Below, piece by piece: positions 2,150 through 46,225 of a stretch of 64,000 nt of DNA. Position numbers and translations under genes: made by a program. A model generated the notes under the pieces. It saw only the letters and a program-made list of their open reading frames with translations. It was not told the origin of the DNA and did no database searches. How positions within the stretch are numbered: position 1 is the stretch's first letter; each line of letters opens with the position of its first letter. This DNA is from Erinaceus europaeus (lineage: Eukaryota; Chordata; Mammalia; Eulipotyphla; Erinaceidae): contig NC_080175.1 in assembly GCF_950295315.1 (NCBI RefSeq), positions 83,579,566-83,643,565 on the forward strand, given 5' to 3'.

Positions 2150-3158
2150 CGCCATACACAATCAGCAAGGGATGCTTCAGAGTTTTTTGCAGCAAAATTC
2201 TAAGCCAATTTTAAAGGATGCTGACTGTGGAAAACTGATACAGAAAATAAGCAGCAAAATAATATATAACACAAAGGGCAGTGGATGTGCTGAACATGAG
2301 ACCTTTCCTTTCATGGTATTCTCTAATTCCATTTCAGCTGGTTCACTTCCTAACAAAGTCCCAAAACCTACATATAGACCAGGTCCCATGAGATAGAGTA
2401 TATGTTCACATGTATCCATAAATTAGGGCAAAATATATACCTGAAAGCAAAAGTGCACAATAGTCTGCAGTGAGTCAGTATATTCAGCAAGCAAGTAGAA
2501 AGGCCTAAAAAGACACCATAAAATGACCAATGAAACAGTTTCTACCTAGACCTAGATAACCTCCCCACCCACTTTCTATTGCACCTCCCTCACTCACTCC
2601 AAAGCTAACCTTATCAAAGTAAGGACTGAAAAAGCTAAATAAGGGCAAGAGACTAGCATACTTTAATGATGACTCTTTAGTCACTATCAGGCCACCCCAT
2701 CATCTGGGGGTCCTAGCTGGGGAGTCCTGAGATTCCCAAACAGACATGATAGGCCTAGACCTTGAATAGAATCCTCTCTCAACTGTTACTGATCATCTCT
2801 ATCAAGAACAACACAACAGACCCCTTTGTGAGCCACCTAGAGTGTGTGTCCTAGAGCCCTGCTTCCCCAGAGCCCCACCCCACTAGGGAAAGAGAGAGAC
2901 AGGCTGGGAGAATAGATCAACCTGTCAATGCCCATGTTCAGTGGGGAAGCAATTACAGAAGCCAGACCTTCCACCTTCTGCATCACATAATGACACTGGG
3001 TCCATGCTCCCAGAGGGTTAAAGAATAGAAAAGCTATCAGGGGAGGGGATGGGATACAGAGCTCTAGTGATAGGAATTATGTGGAGTTGTACCTCTGTTA
3101 TCCTATGGTTTTGTCAGTGTTTCTTTTTTTATAAATAAAAATTTTTTAAAAAAGAAAA
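2150..3158 (+). repeat. Repeat F, long copy with internal deletion
   Basis: The left part (about 2290-2470) matches the F copy at 15.2 kb (GAGACCTTTCCTTT, AACAAAGTCCC, CAAAATATATACCTGAAAGC). The right part carries the diagnostic 3' block with GAAGCAATTACAGAAGCCAG, GGGTCCATGCTCCCAGAGGG and GTTGTACCTCTGTTATCC. It ends in an A-rich tail near 3158. The block from about 2690 joins directly to the 3' block, so several hundred bases present in the 12.2-kb copy are missing. No coding capacity is visible. Confidence 0.75.
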
Positions 3159-3466
3159 AGTCATCATGTTGTGGTTTATAAGCATAGGGTAAGCAATCAT
3201 CAGTTAGTTGATTTTTATGATGGCACATATCCTACAGCTTTGTTTTCATGCCTGAGTTTCATGTAACCATTTTTAGTAATTAATGTATTTACTTTGAAGG
3301 TGTATTTCTAGGAGAATTACTTCAATCACATATTCTCCTGCTTCAGACTGACATAGAGTCCTTCAATAGGGGAAGAAATTATGTTCTTAGGTATTTCTTA
3401 TTTTTACCCTACACTAGTGGGTATAACTATCTTGTAAGATGAAATACTAGGGCAAAGAGTCCAGGA
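3159..3466. other. Unassigned intergenic DNA
   Basis: No gene or repeat recognised. Confidence 0.4.
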
Positions 3467-3602
3467 CAAGAGTAGATAGCATAATAGTTATGTAAAGAGA
3501 CTCTCATGCCTGAGATTCCAAAGTCCCAAGTTCAATACCCTGTACCATCATAAACCAGAGCTGATCAGTGTTCTCATTAAAAAAAAAATTTTTTTTTAAA
3601 GG
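3467..3602 (+). repeat. SINE-C
   Basis: Head AGATAGCATAATAGTTATGT, middle CTCTCATGCCTGAGATTCCA and end CCAGAGCTGATCAGTG, with an A/T-rich tail. Confidence 0.8.
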
Positions 3603-4020
3603 AAAGAAAGTCCAGATTAAACAGAGGAAGCAGTGTTTTTTAGAAAGCCAGACTGGATGAAGATTTTTTTTGAAATTACAGAATATTTGTCACATTTACT
3701 TTTTTTCACATGTTAAAATATAATTTCTCTGTATCTCTTCTATCAATATCATTGTCCCTGGTCTCCTTCTGTCATTCAGACTTCTCTGACTTGTGTTCCA
3801 TTCTACTGGGAATCAGCCAGTTGACTATCTAATTAATAACTTAACATGAGCTGAGAATTATTATGGAGAATGTGTGCTTTTATCTTAGAGGACTCCAGGG
3901 ACCTTTCAAAAATTCCCCAAACTCAATTTACCCAGATGTTCTCACCTTGCGTCTTAAAAGGAACAATTCTAAAAGTGTATAGTAGTTGTCAAGTTACTAA
4001 GTCTTATGTTCAGCAACAGC
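3603..4020. other. Unassigned intergenic DNA
   Basis: No gene or repeat recognised. The short open frame from 3870 lacks any recognisable family. Confidence 0.4.
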
Positions 4021-4150
4021 CTCATCACCTAAAGATTCTAGTGATCAAAATATGTTCAAATTCTATCTCTTTCAGTTCCTAGATGTGTGACATAACCTCT
4101 CTGGACCTCCATTTGCATATGAATAATGAAGATATGACTACAAAATGTGT
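4021..4150 (+). repeat. MIR-like ancient SINE
   Basis: The segment TGTGTGACATAACCTCTCTG followed by a degenerate CTCCATTTGCATATGAATAA resembles the MIR core, which has the form gtgacct...taacctctctg...cctcatctgtaaaatg. Confidence 0.45.
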
Positions 4151-4227
4151 GGGTCAATACAAGATTGAAATCATGTACCTTTTTTTTGTAAATTGGAAGG
4201 CATTCAATAAATACAGTTGTGATTAAT

Positions 4228-4440
4228 TGCATGCTGCTGTGTAACGCATTTACTTCAAATCATAGTGGTTTAAAACAACACTTTTTTCTCATATTTCTTA
4301 TAGGTCCAGAGTTTGGGAGCAGTTTACCTAGATGGTTCTGACTCGGGATCTCTCATGAAGCTGTAAACAAAATGTTGACAAGAACTACAGTAATCTGAGG
4401 CTTGTCTGGGGCTGAAGAATCCACTTTTTTATTTAAAATT
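4228..4440 (+). repeat. Ancient mammalian interspersed repeat, family not named
   Basis: The order TGCTGTGTAAC, TAGTGGTTTAAAACAACAC, TCTCATGAAGCTG and CTGAGGCTTGTCTGGGGCTG is typical of a widespread eutherian repeat that I recognise but cannot name with certainty. Confidence 0.45.
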
Positions 4441-4775
4441 GATAAGGGGTTGATATTCCTTTCTTCCCCCAAAGTAAATGATTCAAAAGGGAAAGATACT
4501 GCATTATAAGTTACATATAATTATTTCCACAAGGTCTTATTGGCCATCTCTATTCAGCATGGAAAAGGCCTACACAAGGATTTCAACATCAGGAATAAGA
4601 CTGAGGAGGCACTATCTTAGGAACCAGGTACATCAAGATGCTGCTGACCTGGAGGCCAAAGATAGAACCTGGCTCACATAAAACCAAGAGTAAATGACCA
4701 GTCTTTGCCTCAGGATACAGGAAAACAAATAAGGAAGTGAAGGCAGGACAGCAGGAAAAAATGGGCAAAAAACAG
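4441..4775. other. Unassigned intergenic DNA
   Basis: No gene or repeat recognised. Confidence 0.4.
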
Positions 4776-4819
<44 letters not shown>

Positions 4820-4858
4820 GATGGATGGATGGATAAATAGATAGATAGATAAATGATA
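4776..4858. repeat. (GATA)n microsatellite with GATG variants
   Basis: About eleven GATA units are followed by ATGG and further GATA units. The Tyr-Leu-Ser-Ile repeats read on the minus strand are translations of this tract and not a protein. Confidence 0.95.
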
Positions 4859-6019
4859 GACATATGATATAAAATCAACCCATATCTGTGATCTTGGGAG
4901 AACTGGAGCAAGATGATGACACAACTCTGGTGGTGGAAATCACGGATAATCTAGCAGCAGGGATAACTATGAGTGATGTCCAACCCAAAGAAAGGGTAAT
5001 AGACTGGGAAGTGTCCACCTACCAGAGATTTCCAACTTCAAGATCACTGCAGTAATTCTTCAGGATACTATTGCCAGCTCCATTTCACAGAACAGGAAAA
5101 CTCTTATTCAGAAACCAAATGACGTATTAAACATTTGACTCATTTCAGGGATTATGTTCTTTCCCTAGCTCCTAGCTCCTTTCCCTAGAAGAGTCTATCA
5201 CTTCTTCTAAGATATTTTTGGACATGTGGTAGGGAAATAATAGCATTGATAAGAGACCTGAAAGTGTTGAGGTATCACTTGTGGTTCTATATATGGAATG
5301 CAACAAAGGCCACAAATTTAAATTTGTTTATAGCGCTATTAAGGCACATAGTGTTGATGCCAAACTCCTCTTGACATCTTCAAACAAGATTTCTTAAATT
5401 ACATGAGGCACAATGTAAACACCACTTAGAACTACTACTCTCTCCCAAAAATCTCTGTATACATACCAGAAATGACAAGTAATAGAATTCAGTGTTTCCT
5501 TTGCCAGTATGGAACTTCATGATTTTCTTTCTGTCATTCCTGGTGGACACATGAAGGCCCCACTCCCCAAAACAGTCTGAACTCATTGTGGGTGCAGTAG
5601 CTAAACTAAAGAAACAGATACTTTCTTTTTCAATCCATCTAATGTTCTTGTTGAGCCAGAAAACTGACAGAGACATATTAATAAAGCAAATATTTATTAT
5701 TATAAGTCTTACCTGACAGTGAAGCTTTCACATGAAAAGCAAGACCTAAAGAAATGATTTCCCTTGAATATTGTTACACAGATTTGATGAAGGGCAGGAA
5801 GTTAAGAGAAAACGATTGGACAGAAGGATATGAGGTAGCAAAATTAGGGAAAACAAAAATCTACTTGTACTCATTGTTTTTCTTGTCCCTTCAGAGGTAA
5901 ATATCCTTTATACCAAATATAGGGAGAGTACATCTCATTGGAGAGTCTTACCTCCTATTTAAGGGGGTAGAGGGAGTATCAGAGTATCCTTCCTGTACCT
6001 GTTGTCCTGTTGTTCCTCA
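4859..6019. other. Unassigned intergenic DNA
   Basis: No gene or repeat recognised over about 1.2 kb. Short open frames have no recognisable domain. Confidence 0.45.
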
Positions 6020-22578: not shown

Positions 22579-22860
22579 TTTATTTTTTTAATGTTTATTC
22601 ATTTACTTATTCCCTTTTGTTGCCCTTGTTGTTTTATTGTTGTTATTGATGTGGTTGTTGTTGGCTAGGACAGAGAGAAATGGAGAGAGGAGGGGAAGAC
22701 AGAGAGGGGGAGAGAAAGACAGACACCTGCAGACCTGCTTCACTGCCTGTGAAATGACTCCCCTGCACGTGGGGAACCGGGGCTCGAACCAGGATTCTTG
22801 GGTGTGTCCCTGCGCTTTGCGCCACCTGTGCTTAACCTGATGTGCTACTGCCCGACTCCC
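22579..22860 (-). repeat. SINE-A
   Basis: Antisense copy from the A-tail (TTCCCTTTTGTTGCCC reversed) to the head TGCTACTGCCCGACTCCC. TACATTTTATTTTATT at 22563-22578 and 22861-22876 is a 16-bp target duplication. Confidence 0.92.
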
Positions 22861-23060: not shown

Positions 23061-23221
23061 TGAATTTTTAAACTTATATGATGACAGAATTTCAGTTGGA
23101 AAAAAAAGCATAGGTACAACTCCACAATAGTCAATACACTTTTCATTGTCATTAACCTTGTGTGTTAACTCAGTATATGACTTAGTCCAAGACATCCAGC
23201 TTTTGTTTAAACATATCAGTT

Positions 23222-24402
23222 AGTGCATCTGGGTGACAAGTCTAGCAGATGGAGACTTGTCTCAAGTGGCCTCCCCCAGGGTTCTGTTCTGGCTCCTACG
23301 CTATTTAATACTTACATCAATGACCTCCCAGAAACTTCTTCAAGGAAGTTCATCTACGCCGATGACATCTGCTGTGCAACTCAGGCATCCAAGTTCGACA
23401 TCCTCGAGGAAACACTCACGAAAGACATGTCTCTGATATCTGATTACTGTAAAAAATGGCGACTAATCCCTAGCACTGCAAAAACGGTATCATCTGTTTT
23501 CCATCTACACCATGCCTCGGCCTCGCTTAATGTGAGCTTAATGTGCAGCTTAATGTACAGCTTGGCGATACGAGAATCCGGCATGAAGCCCAGCCAGTCT
23601 ATCTTGGCGTTACTCTCAATCGCACCCTGTCATTTCACGAACATCTCATAAAAACTGCAGCAAAGGTGGGCGCGAGGAATCACATCATTGCAAGACTGGT
23701 CAGCTCCTCATGGGGCGCGAGCGCTTCCACACTACGATCATCATCTCTGGCATTATGCTATTCCACTGCAGAATACTGTGCCCCAGGATGGTTCCGTAGC
23801 CCCCATGTCCACTTGGTCGATTCCAAATTATATTCCTCCATGAGGATCATTTCTGGAACCATCCGTTCCACCCCGGTTCCATGGCTGCCAGTTCTTAGCA
23901 ACATTGCCCCGCCAGATATTCGTCGGGATGCGGCATCATCTAAGTTCATTTCCCGCGTCTACGCTCGACCGCACCTGCCAATATACGCGGATATCTTCGC
24001 CCACCCTGTCCAACGCTTGACATCTCGTCATCCAATCTGGTCCCCTATGCCTACACTGAACTTCTCTGTTCCAGACTCTTGGAAACAGAGTTTGCAGTCA
24101 GCTGAGGTCAAGAACAAACACCTCATCACAGACCCCTGCGAGCGTCAACCCGGCTTTGACCTAGCACGTTATGATCGGGCCCTCCTCAATCGCTATCGAA
24201 CAGGCCATGGCCGGTGTGCCGCTATGTTCCATCGCTGGGGAGCCAGAGATGACCCGAACTGCCCCTGCGGCTCCAGACAGACTATGACCCACATAGTCAA
24301 TGACTGCCACCTCTCCAGATTCAAAGGAGGTCTCGAAACTTTACATCAGGCTCAACGTGACGCTGTTAACTGGCTACAGAAGAAGGGCAAACGCTAGAAG
24401 AA
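23222..24402 (+). mobile_element. Jockey-type non-LTR retrotransposon, 5'-truncated (copy 1)
   Basis: This carries the C-terminal half of a LINE reverse-transcriptase protein. 23268-23285 encodes GLPQGS (RT motif B), followed by LFNTYINDLP. 23355-23366 encodes YADD, the catalytic aspartate pair. KKWRLIPSTAKT follows, then a thumb and connection region (STAEYCAPGW, RTGHGRC), and near 24,259-24,307 a C-P-C-G ... H-I-V ... C cysteine/histidine cluster. The layout and wording match Jockey-superfamily elements of arthropods; I know of no such element as a normal part of mammalian genomes. The reading frame shifts once, at 23525-23565, where GCTTAATGT is present three times. After that the frame is open to the stop at 24395-24397. 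Endonuclease and N-terminal RT motifs are absent, and the element ends about 5 bp past its stop codon without a poly-A tail. Clade and origin are inference; the RT identity is clear. Confidence 0.85.
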
Positions 24403-25324
24403 AAGTTAGATGAAAGAAATGATTAATGAAATGAAGGTACGGGAAGAAAAAAAACAAACATTTTTCCCAAGACTTTGCACTTAACAAATGCCTGCAAACC
24501 AAAGAAAGCGAATGAGCCAACATACTCTCAATACAGGGTGTAATAAAAATTCAAAAGGATTCAGCTTCAGCAGAATTTTGTATTTTTATACTCAGATTTT
24601 ATTTTTCTTTTACTAACTTCCAAATAGATATAATTTGTTAAAATATGCTGCAAATTTTTTCTTAATAATTGGAAAATTTTGTTTGGCCTCCAAGTGAAGC
24701 AATTTCTGGAGAAAATACATGATTGAAACCTGAAGAGAAAATGCAAAGCATGTATTCAGACTGTATATCATATTCCCAGGATATACGTAAATGGGAAGAG
24801 TCACTGAGTAAATGGTATTGGGTTTGGGTAATAGTATAAACCACTGTCATTAGGCAACTCCCCTTGTGCATTAATATGTGACATCATACTCTCATAACAT
24901 TTCACATGGGAGTGAAATAAAAAGCCCCTCCAGATTGCAACTCTAAGATAATCAGATTCTGTAGTGCTCATTATGACTGCAATTATGTAACAAAACTCTC
25001 CAAATATAGTTCGGTTATTGCAGTTATTAATCATTCTGGTTATGTTTCAAGTACTTGCTTTACAGTCTGCTGGAGAGACTCCATTATTCTACAAACTGAA
25101 TGTCGAAAGTCAAACATGCGCATGTGAATCTGCTTGCTGTTCTAACGGGTTTTCAACATAACTTACCCTTTCAGTTTGGATTTGTGAATACAAAAAAAAA
25201 AAAGTGGATAAATGAAGCTGGTTGTCAATAGAGTCACTGACTTCTGTGGTAAAGAGAAGACTGTCCTTAACAAAAAACAAGTTGGCAAATAAGTCATCTA
25301 TTTTGCTAGATCTATAAATAATGC
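24403..25324. other. Unassigned intergenic DNA
   Basis: No gene or repeat recognised over about 0.9 kb; includes an A run near 25,192. Confidence 0.4.
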
Positions 25325-25622: not shown

Positions 25623-26185
25623 CCTCCCCTATGATCCTGCAATTCCTCTTCTGAGGATATATCCTAAGGAGCACAACACACCCATCCAAAAAGATTTGTG
25701 TATACCTATGTTCATACAGCACAATTTGTAATAGCCAAAACCTGGAAGCAACCCAGATGTCAAACAACAGATGAGTGGCTGAGCAATTTGTGGTATATAT
25801 ACACAATGGAATACTACCCAGCTATCAAAAAATGTGACTTCACTATTTTAAGCCCATTTTGGATGGAGCTTGAAGAAATCATGTTAAGTGAAATAAGGCA
25901 GAAACAGAAGATGAATATGGGATGATCTCACTCTCAGGCAGAAGTTGAAAAACAAGAGCAGAAGAGAAAACACAAGTAGAACCTGAACTGGAGTTGGTGT
26001 ACCACACCAAAGTAAGAGACTCTGGGGTGGATGGGGGTGGGGGAGAATACAGGTCCAAACAGGATAACAGAGGACCTAGTGGGGGTTGTATTGTCATGTG
26101 GAAAACTGAGATATGTTAGACATGTACAAACTATTGTATTTATTGTCGAATGTAAAACATTAATTCCCCAATAAAGAAAAAACAA
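25623..26185 (+). mobile_element. L1 3' end
   Basis: GAGGATATATCCTAAGGAGC, CAACAGATGAGTGGCTGAGC, TACACAATGGAATACTACCC, GTGAAATAAGGCAGAAACAG, then the 3' UTR and TAATTCCCCAATAAAGAAAA. AAGTTAGTCTCTGAA (25608-25622) and AAGTTGGTCTCCGAA (26186-26200) probably are the target duplication (13 of 15). Confidence 0.85.
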
Positions 26186-28322: not shown

Positions 28323-28767
28323 CCCAGGTGTCCAACAACAGATGAGTGGCTGAGCAAGTTGTGGTGTATATATACACAATGGAATACTACTCAGCTGTAA
28401 AAAATGGTGACTTCACAGTTTTCAGCTGATCTTGGATGGACCTTGAAAAAATCATGTTGAGTGAAATAAGTCAGAAACAGAAGGATGAATATGGGATGAT
28501 CTCACTATCAGGCAGAAGTTGAAAAACAAGATCAGAAAAGAAAACACAAGTAGAACCTGAAATGGAATTGGCGTATTGCACCAAAGTAAAAGACTCTGGG
28601 GTGGGAGGGTGGGGAGAATACAGGTCCATGAAGGATGACAGAGGACCTGGTGGGGGTTGTATTGTTAAATGGGAATCTGGGGAATGTTATGCCTGTACAA
28701 ACTATTGTATTTACTGTTGAATGTAAAACATTAATTCCCCAATAAAGAAATAAATTAAAAAAAAAAC
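28323..28767 (+). mobile_element. L1 3' end
   Basis: CCCAGGTGTCCAACAACAGA, AATGGAATACTACTCAGC and the 3' UTR to AATTCCCCAATAAAGAAATA. ACACCAACATAA at 28311-28322 and CACCAACATAA at 28768-28778 form the target duplication. Confidence 0.88.
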
Positions 28768-31775: not shown

Positions 31776-32011
31776 TTGTTGCCCTTTTTTATTGTTGTCG
31801 TCATTGTTGGATAGGACAGAGAGAAATGGAGAGAGGAGGGGAAGACAGAGAGGGGGAGAGAAAGACAGACACCTGCAGACCTGCTTCATCGCCAGTAAAG
31901 GGACTGACTCCCCTGCAGGTGGGGAGCCGGGAGCTCAAACTGGGATCCTTAGGCCGGTCCTTGCACTTTGTGCCACGTGCACTTAACCCACTGTGCTACC
32001 GCCCGACTCCT
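31776..32011 (-). repeat. SINE-A
   Basis: Antisense copy. TTGTTGCCCTTTTTTATTG to CTACCGCCCGACTCC, with GGGACTGACTCCCCTGCAGG in the body. Confidence 0.9.
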
Positions 32012-33099: not shown

Positions 33100-33109
33100 G
33101 AGGAGAACA

Positions 33110-33824
33110 AGGAATCACATCATTGCAAGACTGGCCAGCTCCTCATGGGGCGCGAGCGCTTCCACACTACGATCTTCATCTCTGGCATTATGCTATTCCA
33201 CTGCAGAATACTGTGCCCCAGGATGGTTCCGTAGGCCCCATGTCCACTTGGTCGATTCCAAATTATATTCCTCCATGAGGATCATTTCTGGAACCATCCG
33301 TTCCACCCCGGTTCCATGGCTGCCAGTTCTTAGCAACATCGCCCCGCCAGATATTCGTCGGGATGCGGCATCATCTAAGTTCATTTCCCACGTCTACGCT
33401 CGACCAGACCTGCCAATATACGCAGATATCTTCGCCCACCCTGTGCAACGCTTGATGTCTCATCACCCAATCTGGTCCTCTACGCCTACACTGAACTTCT
33501 CTGTTCCAGTCTCTTGGAAACAGAGCTGGCAGTCAGCTGAGGTAAAGAGCAAACACCTCATCACAGACCCCTGCAAGCGTCAACCCGGCTTTGACCTAGC
33601 ACGTTATGATCGGGCCCTCCTCAATCGCTATCGAACAGGCCATGGCTGGTGCGCCGCTATGTTCCATCGCTGGGGAGCCAGAGACGACCCGAACTGCCCC
33701 TGCGGCTCCAGACAGACTATGACCCACATAGTCAACGACTGCCACCTCTCCAGATTCAAAGGAGGTCTCGAAACTTGACATCAGGCTCAACCCGACGCTG
33801 TTGACTGGCAAACGCTAGAAGAAG
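33110..33824 (+). mobile_element. Jockey-type non-LTR retrotransposon, 5'-truncated (copy 2)
   Basis: This copy matches bases 23674-24402 of copy 1. Counting by eye gives about 29 substitutions over roughly 0.7 kb plus one 14-bp deletion (after GACTGG near 33,808), so about 96% identity. It encodes the region after the YADD motif: STAEYCAPGW, the RTGHG helix, and the C-P-C-G ... H-I-V ... C cluster. The frame stays open until a TGA near 33,776, where copy 1 has TTA. The two copies end at the same place, AACGCTAGAAGAAG. GAGGAGAACAAGGAA (33100-33114) and GAGGAAAACAAGGAA (33825-33839) flank it, a 14-of-15 target duplication overlapping the 5' junction by about 5 bp. This is a genuine insertion made in this genome. 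Confidence 0.88.
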
Positions 33825-34055
33825 GAGGAAAACAAGGAAGGGAAGTGAGGACGTGGAGATCTAGGGGGCAACTCCCCCAGGTTAGAATCCCTGACATCAG
33901 AGGGAGATTTCCAAAGAGAAGTGAAAAAGGAGCAAAGGAGATGCAGTGACTAAAGGAGGAGAAAAACCAAACTACCTGAGATACACAGAAGGAGAAAAAT
34001 ATGGAGAGGAAAAGGAAGAGGTCCATCTAATTTAACTATAGAAATAGCCTCTTCT

Positions 34056-34355
34056 TGGGAGTCGGGCTGTAACGCAGTAGGTTAAGCGCTGGTGGCACAA
34101 AGCCCAAGGACTGGAGTAAGGATCCCGGTTAGAGTCCCCCGCTCCCCACCTGCAGGGGAGTGGCTTCACAAGCAGTGAAGCAAATCTGCAGGTGTCTATC
34201 TCTCCCTGTCTCTGTCTTCCCCTCCTGTCTCCATTTCTCTCTGTCCTATCCAACAGCGACATCAATAACAATAAGGGCAACAAAAGGGAATAAATAAATA
34301 AATATTTAAAAAACAAAAGAACTTTTAAAAAAGATATATTAAAAAAAAAAGGAAA
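34056..34355 (+). repeat. SINE-A
   Basis: GGGAGTCGGGCTGTAACGCA to GGGAATAAATAAATAAATAT. AGAAATAGCCTCTTCT (34040-34055) and AGAAATATCCTCTTCT (34356-34371) are the target duplication. Confidence 0.92.
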
Positions 34356-45250: not shown

Positions 45251-45374
45251 TGTGAGTACACATTTAGCCTTCAGTTAATGATATAACTTGGTGATGCAGT
45301 TCACATTCTATTTCTTTTTTCTCTTCTGGAACTGGGGCCTTGAACATATGTTATTTCACCATTCACAGGCTGCT

Positions 45375-46225
45375 GTTTTCATTCAGATAAAGCAAGACAG
45401 AAGGAGAGAGGGAGAGGGAGAGGGAGAGGGAGAGGGAGAGGGAGAGAGAGAGACAGAGAGGGAGGGAGGGGGAGAGGGAGAGAGAGAGGGAGGGAGGGAG
45501 GGAGAGGGAGAGAGGGAGGGAGAGGGAGAGAGAGAGAGGGAGGGAGGGAGAGGGAGAGAGAGAGAGGGAGAGAGAGGGAGAGAGAGGGGGAGGGAGAGTG
45601 AGAGAGAGGGAGAGAGAGAGACAGACAGAGAGGGAGGGAGGGAGAGGGAGAGGGAGAGAGGGAAGGAGGGGGAGAGGGAGAGGGAGAGAGGGAAGGAGGG
45701 GGAGAGGGAGAGAGAGGGAGGGAGAGAGAGGGAGAGGGAGAGAGAGGAAGGGAGAGAGAGAGAGAGGGAGGGAGAGAGGGAGAGGGAGAGAGAGGGGGAG
45801 GGAGAGAGAGGGAGGGAGAGGGAGAGAGAGGGAGGGAGAGGGAGAGAGAGAGAGGGAGGGAGAGGGAGGGAGAGTGAGAGAGAGAGAGGGAGAGAGAGAG
45901 GGAGAGGGAGAGAGAGGGAGGGAGAGAGAAAGGGAGGGAGAGAGAGAGGGAGAGGGAGAGAGAGGGAGGGAGAGGGAGAGAGAAAGGGAGGGAGAGAGAG
46001 GGAGAGGGAGAGGGAGAGAGAGGGAGAGAGAGAGGGAGAGGGAGAGAGAGAGAGGGAGAGAGAGAGAGAGAGGGAGAGAGAGAGAGGGAGAGGGAGAGAG
46101 AGAGAGGGAGGGAGAGGGAGAGAGAGAGAGAGAGAGAGGCCCCTGAAGCATTGCTTCACTGATTATGAAGCTTTTGAACCTGGTTCTTTAGGCGTGGTGG
46201 TAATGTGTTCTCTATAGGTCCTCCT
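45375..46225 (-). repeat. SINE-B carrying a 0.75-kb (GGGAGA)n/(GA)n expansion
   Basis: SINE-B sequence lies on both sides: CAGATAAAGCAAGACAGAAG on the left and CTGAAGCATTGCTTCACTGA, AAGCTTTTGAACCTGG on the right. Between 45393 and 46138 every base is G or A apart from a few T and C. The unit is a mixture of GGGAGA, GAGAGA and GGGAGG. The CT/GA block is normally about 60-80 bp in this family. Long reading frames across it are low-complexity translations, not proteins. Confidence 0.88.

Follow-up and report, generated by a model that had tools for sequence, protein, structure and literature searches.

A broken, 5′-truncated copy of a little-diverged LINE, most likely Vingi-1_EE, in the genome of the hedgehog Erinaceus europaeus

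The window, by which is meant the whole 64,000-nucleotide stretch of Erinaceus europaeus DNA that was analysed (contig NC_080175.1, positions 83,579,566 to 83,643,565 of the forward strand), carries two open reading frames that together hold the landmarks of a non-LTR retrotransposon. The first (23211–23651, 146 aa) contains GLPQGS, YADD and KKWRLIPSTAKT, and the second (23531–24397, 288 aa) contains RTGHGRC and CPCG...HIVNDC; the motifs, the C-P-C-G cluster among them, thus lie where the initial annotation had described them, and the frame that it took to be open for about 285 codons after one shift is the second of the two. The first frame matches the Pfam family RVT_1 at 6.4e-11 over profile positions 110–191 of 205, which marks window positions 23224–23651 (forward strand) as the later part of a reverse transcriptase (RT) domain containing GLPQGS and YADD. 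The second frame returned no family above the cut-off in the Pfam profile search and corresponds to what follows the RT core, including the CCHC-like cluster (23531–24397, forward strand), closed by a TAG stop codon at 24395–24397.

Both frames belong to a single insertion, a 5′-truncated 3′ end of a Vingi-like LINE (copy 1, 23224–24403, forward strand), which corresponds to positions 4333–5495 of the long genome copy L031, differs from it by a duplication of 17 nt, ends in a short tail rich in A, and is 95.8 per cent identical to L031 over 1,180 aligned columns (window 23223–24402; blastn). Pairwise alignment to L031 places the short tandem duplication at 23525–23557 on the forward strand, where a net gain of 17 nt shifts the frame. 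The frame shift caused by the duplication is best read as a defect of this copy; programmed frameshifting was considered and rejected because the duplicated 17 nt are missing in L031. Flank comparison gives copy 1 putative target-site duplications, AGTTAG on the left (23218–23223) and AGTTAG on the right (24404–24409), though at 6 bp this repeat is barely longer than the 4.6 bp that mismatched flanks average.

A more strongly 5′-truncated copy of the same family lies at about 33115–33824 on the forward strand (copy 2), with a small deletion just ahead of the stop codon, after which a brief tail of the (GAA) type runs to 33824. It is 97.0 per cent identical to L031 over 700 nt (33110–33809; blastn) and is bounded by target-site duplications of 15 bp at 33100–33114 and 33825–33839, which differ by one mismatch and share an exact core of 9 bp. 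The distance between the two copies (K2P 0.043 over 700 nt) bears out the earlier estimate that they are about 96 per cent identical. They differ in their 5′ borders and in their flank repeats and are therefore separate insertions rather than parts of a duplicated segment. Judged from their sequences, both would be broken, inactive insertions.

The structure of the family can be read from L031, in which positions 2420–5502 form a near-full element of 3,083 bp (the family element being about 3.08 kb), its 5′ end set at 2420 by the start common to short derivatives of the element. The 967-aa frame of L031 matches an APE endonuclease (PF03372/PF14529) at residues 2–184 and a reverse transcriptase (PF00078) at residues 465–707, and it carries an in-frame stop close to its start, such that L031 is itself not an intact copy. 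The leader from the 5′ end to the in-frame ATG measures only 92 nt, which leaves no room for an ORF1 upstream of the single ORF, and a Pfam search of the L031 and L032 frames found no RNase H at E≤0.1. At the other end the element finishes with its stop codon, which is followed directly by a (GAA)n tail.

When copies are aligned to L031 by blastn they share this 3′ end and start at many different points. Flank repeats of at least 7 bp border 23 of 37 copies (the remaining 14 have shorter ones) as against 4.5 per cent of mismatched flank pairs, and the mean length of the flank match is 8.3 as against 4.6; the 37 comprise 35 loci and the two window copies, and exclude L001 (window copy 1), L040 (a second occurrence of L014), the reference L031, L025 (which the end of its locus truncates) and L002 (inverted 5′ part). 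In L002 (1489–3261) the 5′ part is inverted at a breakpoint, and 5′ inversions arise by twin priming in L1 and other LINEs. The common 3′ terminus, the 5′ truncation, the flank repeats and the 5′ inversion are marks of target-primed reverse transcription, by which the element is predicted to copy itself: its endonuclease would nick the target DNA, and its RT would prime on that nick at the element's 3′ tail.

The family is a little-diverged one of high copy number that likely moved recently. The genome searched comprises 2,720,570,532 bases in 1,172 contigs (2.72 Gb). With the C-terminal frame as query, the best 136 of 38,800 loose candidates are 93–96 per cent identical in amino acids (the query itself aside) and many keep long open frames, and with the last 295 nt as a DNA query the best 40 of 2,140 candidates are 97–98 per cent identical, again leaving the query aside; both numbers are minimum figures, and the scored copies lean towards the best ones. 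The genome holds many copies, at least 136 of them closely similar. Among 40 copies (38 loci and both window copies, omitting L001, which is window copy 1, and L040, which is L014 again) the mean pairwise K2P distance is 0.027, or 0.018 outside CpG-prone columns, in keeping with the proposal that a non-LTR retrotransposon unusual for mammals had moved recently. The window copy lies at a mean distance of 0.034 from the others (0.021 outside CpG-prone columns), and subtracting half of the 40-copy mean leaves a private change of about 2.1 per cent (1.2 per cent outside CpG-prone columns). Mammalian rates are 2.2–4.5 substitutions per thousand million years per site, and at these rates the window copies would be roughly 3–10 million years old, an estimate that leans to young copies because those scored are the best of many. 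Changes among the hedgehog copies number 122, 135 and 274 at codon positions 1, 2 and 3; as the copies were chosen by a protein search, these counts are not taken as evidence of selection.

Such low divergence bears directly on the alternative that the feature is an old L2 or CR1 relic of the kind common to all mammals. These relics bear the same RT motifs, but relic copies are old and highly diverged whereas the 40 hedgehog copies differ by 2.7 per cent on average and long open frames persist in many of the best 136; a relic of this kind is thus highly improbable, as the initial annotation had also argued. That foreign DNA has contaminated the assembly might be suspected given that many relatives are known only from metagenomes, but the copies lie on many long contigs of the one genome, beside hedgehog-type repeats and with target-site duplications, and the possibility is practically negligible.

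The element also has a much shorter derivative. Positions 748–945 of L038 (198 bp) fuse ∼130 nt from the 5′ end of the element with ∼66 nt from its 3′ end, and with this sequence as query the best 40 of 612 genome candidates are 97–99 per cent identical (query aside). Flank repeats of at least 7 bp accompany 11 of 12 examined copies, as against 4 of 132 mismatched pairs. The derivative has therefore spread on its own as an internal-deletion form of the element. It would have been mobilised in trans by the machinery of the autonomous element, and the signal recognised by the RT would then lie in the terminal ∼66 nt, a stretch that consists mostly of coding sequence. Folding of these 66 nt is no better than that of shuffled sequences (z −0.38), and a folded 3′ signal in them was rejected for want of excess stability. 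A comparable pairing is known from the lizard Anolis, in which Vingi-2_Acar is listed as the partner of SINE2-1_Acar (PMC3747384). The likeness is that of a Vingi element with a short non-autonomous partner; SINE2-1_Acar, however, is a tRNA-derived SINE, whereas the hedgehog derivative consists of the LINE's own two ends.

These features speak to the identity of the family, which the initial annotation had placed in the Jockey type of arthropods. Jockey elements combine APE and RT, with GLPQGS, YADD and a CCHC-like cluster downstream of the RT, and carry a gag-like ORF1 upstream of the APE/RT ORF. The hedgehog element has a single ORF and lacks ORF1, and the named arthropod relatives fall outside the group that it forms with fish and turtle sequences; the missing ORF1 and the RT trees speak against the Jockey assignment, which was set aside as unsupported. 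The motifs that had been read as a Jockey pattern call for a correction: GLPQGS, YADD and the CxCG...HI...C cluster show no variation among the eight aligned rows (hedgehog and seven relatives), and they are common in LINE proteins and not known to be diagnostic of Jockey. Ingi, the sister clade of Vingi by published classification, carries an RNase H, and the hedgehog element differs from it in having none. Vingi is defined by the absence of that domain, and the single ORF of L031 with its APE endonuclease and RT, together with the lack of RNase H in the L031 and L032 frames, agrees with Vingi. Kojima, Kapitonov and Jurka (2011, Mol Biol Evol 28:17–20) reportedly described Vingi-1_EE as having APE and RT without RNase H, and are said to have found internal-deletion derivatives of it and to have surveyed other mammals.

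In its hedgehog host, in its recent expansion (the K2P mean given above) and in its non-autonomous internal-deletion family, here the 198-bp derivative, the element is like Vingi-1_EE of Erinaceus europaeus, and no difference was found in a comparison made by description. PMC3183009 gives 311 hedgehog copies of the non-autonomous Vingi-1N3_EE at under 1 per cent divergence, and the L038-type derivative, likewise an internal-deletion form, may be likened by description to such published N families. The feature is of a known kind in its known host, and its family is most likely Vingi-1_EE, going by the citing papers and by these features. We are accordingly confident that the feature is a broken, 5′-truncated copy of a hedgehog LINE, most likely Vingi-1_EE, for which copying by target-primed reverse transcription is predicted. 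Another LINE with a proposed horizontal transfer is present in a eulipotyphlan mammal, RTE1_Sar of the common shrew (PMC6542046); it is a different transferred element, since RTE1_Sar and BovB are of the RTE class and a nematode is proposed as partner.

The relatives of the element were gathered in two protein searches, each of which contributed its best 120 matches (out of 254 and 1,083 respectively). Of the resulting 240 rows, 14 are listed with an organism name. Four of these are from fish or turtle (Synaphobranchus twice, Trachemys and Latimeria, that is, eel, turtle and coelacanth) and ten from arthropods (Cordylochernes six times, Aphis, Uroleucon, Phlebotomus and Nilaparvata), and there is no mammal, tick or mite among the 14. 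The fish and turtle rows are 52–54 per cent identical and partial (215–420 aligned residues), and the arthropod rows are 37–48 per cent identical and nearly complete. One sequence from ENA (P0121, on a contig of 2,072 bases) is 96 per cent identical to the hedgehog LINE and is possibly hedgehog DNA in a hedgehog-associated metagenome; apart from it, none of the 240 rows listed exceeds 62 per cent amino acid identity over most of the query.

Of the 240 proteins, 116 span 500 or more of 538 residues, and thinning by similarity left 101 of these. The larger tree used 74 rows (the best 62, three further named rows, five hedgehog copies and the four partial fish and turtle rows). The hedgehog copies fall in a 48-row clade with eel, turtle and coelacanth (SH-aLRT 100), and all ten named arthropod rows lie outside it. 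These eel, turtle and coelacanth proteins, the nearest rows with an organism name, carry no clade label. A smaller tree of 34 hand-picked rows, which omitted the divergent Aphis row and four of the six pseudoscorpion rows, has a 100/100 branch that parts the hedgehog, fish and turtle sequences from the five named arthropod rows used. An AU test in which the arthropod rows were constrained to group with the hedgehog, apart from the four fish and turtle rows, did not reject that arrangement (p 0.326). The nearest neighbours of the hedgehog element, and most of its clade, are metagenomic proteins of unstated host. No relative turned up in two scans of viral contigs (2 and 6 peptide patterns) or in one of genome contigs (6), and carriage of the element by a virus or a bacterial contig was rejected on that ground, if weakly.

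The initial annotation offered the hypothesis that a Jockey-clade LINE had reached the hedgehog from arthropods, ticks or mites for example. Relatives in aphids, a pseudoscorpion, a sand fly and a planthopper among the best 240 rows would fit such an origin, as would the outcome of the AU test and the unstated hosts of most rows in the hedgehog clade, and Vingi-clade elements are reported in a locust (PMC3391268), so that the clade extends beyond vertebrates. Against this stand the lower identity of the ten named arthropod rows relative to the four partial fish and turtle rows, the exclusion of all ten from the 48-row clade and of all five from the hedgehog side of the smaller tree, the full element's lack of ORF1, and the want of any tick or mite among the named rows. 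An arthropod donor is thus unlikely, and a Jockey-clade element of arthropod source very improbable.

The proposal of horizontal transfer itself holds up better, and here the alternative is vertical descent, in which an early-amniote Vingi lineage survived in hedgehogs and was lost or fossilised in other mammals. Human repeats include the Vingi fossil X12_LINE (PMC5753468) and one pre-amniote Vingi protein fossil (PMC9004415), and Vingi is reported in reptiles; a passage of PMC4476161 is silent on Vingi. Long survival would also agree with the lack, P0121 aside, of a listed relative beyond the 62 per cent already given. It would nevertheless require the element to have stayed active for long in a single lineage, the 14 named rows of the best 240 include no mammal, and PMC3183009 already names the hedgehog Vingi a likely horizontal transfer. 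Vertical descent is thus possible but doubtful, and a transfer out of a vertebrate-type lineage has somewhat the better odds. The combined reading, which we put forward tentatively and with less than even confidence, is of a transfer from an unsampled aquatic or reptilian vertebrate (or from a parasite carrying the vertebrate type) and not from an arthropod, joined to a 3′ signal in the coding end of the element, such that a 66-nt tail suffices for the spread of a derivative that parasitises it.

The hedgehog Vingi is an established case of a recently expanded LINE clade and is cited as a likely horizontal transfer. What is added here is modest: crisp copy ends in a chromosome-scale genome, and a smallest mobile derivative that would narrow the 3′ signal to about 66 nt. 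A donor, moreover, would best be looked for first in fish, in reptiles and in the parasites of either, sooner than in ticks and mites.

Other sequences bear on the host or were noticed beside the element. Contig C5 carries a nuclear cytochrome b copy whose identity is 94 per cent to Erinaceus amurensis, 91 per cent to an unnamed protein, 89–90 per cent to Mesechinus and 84–85 per cent to Atelerix (among the best 120 of 7,999 scored), which makes Erinaceus the most likely host genus. Separately, 28 of 35 cytochrome b matches lie on contig C87 within about 67.86–72.39 Mb (4.5 Mb) on both strands, some being two pieces of one copy, a cluster suggestive of nuclear mitochondrial DNA arranged as a repeated block. 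Within the window, Rfam and tRNA scans found nothing. Copies of a tRNA-like SINE, which we take to be of the hedgehog ERI type, lie at 22634–22860, 31780–32010, 34057–34310 and elsewhere, 64–90 per cent alike in the repeat listing. Direct repeats at 25793–26182 and 28366–28753 stand ∼2,573 bp apart and are 85–89 per cent identical over ∼390 nt. A GA-rich low-complexity tract of ∼0.9 kb (45282–46217) holds open frames of 251–311 aa in five frames on both strands and coincides with strong GC skew at 44–46 kb.
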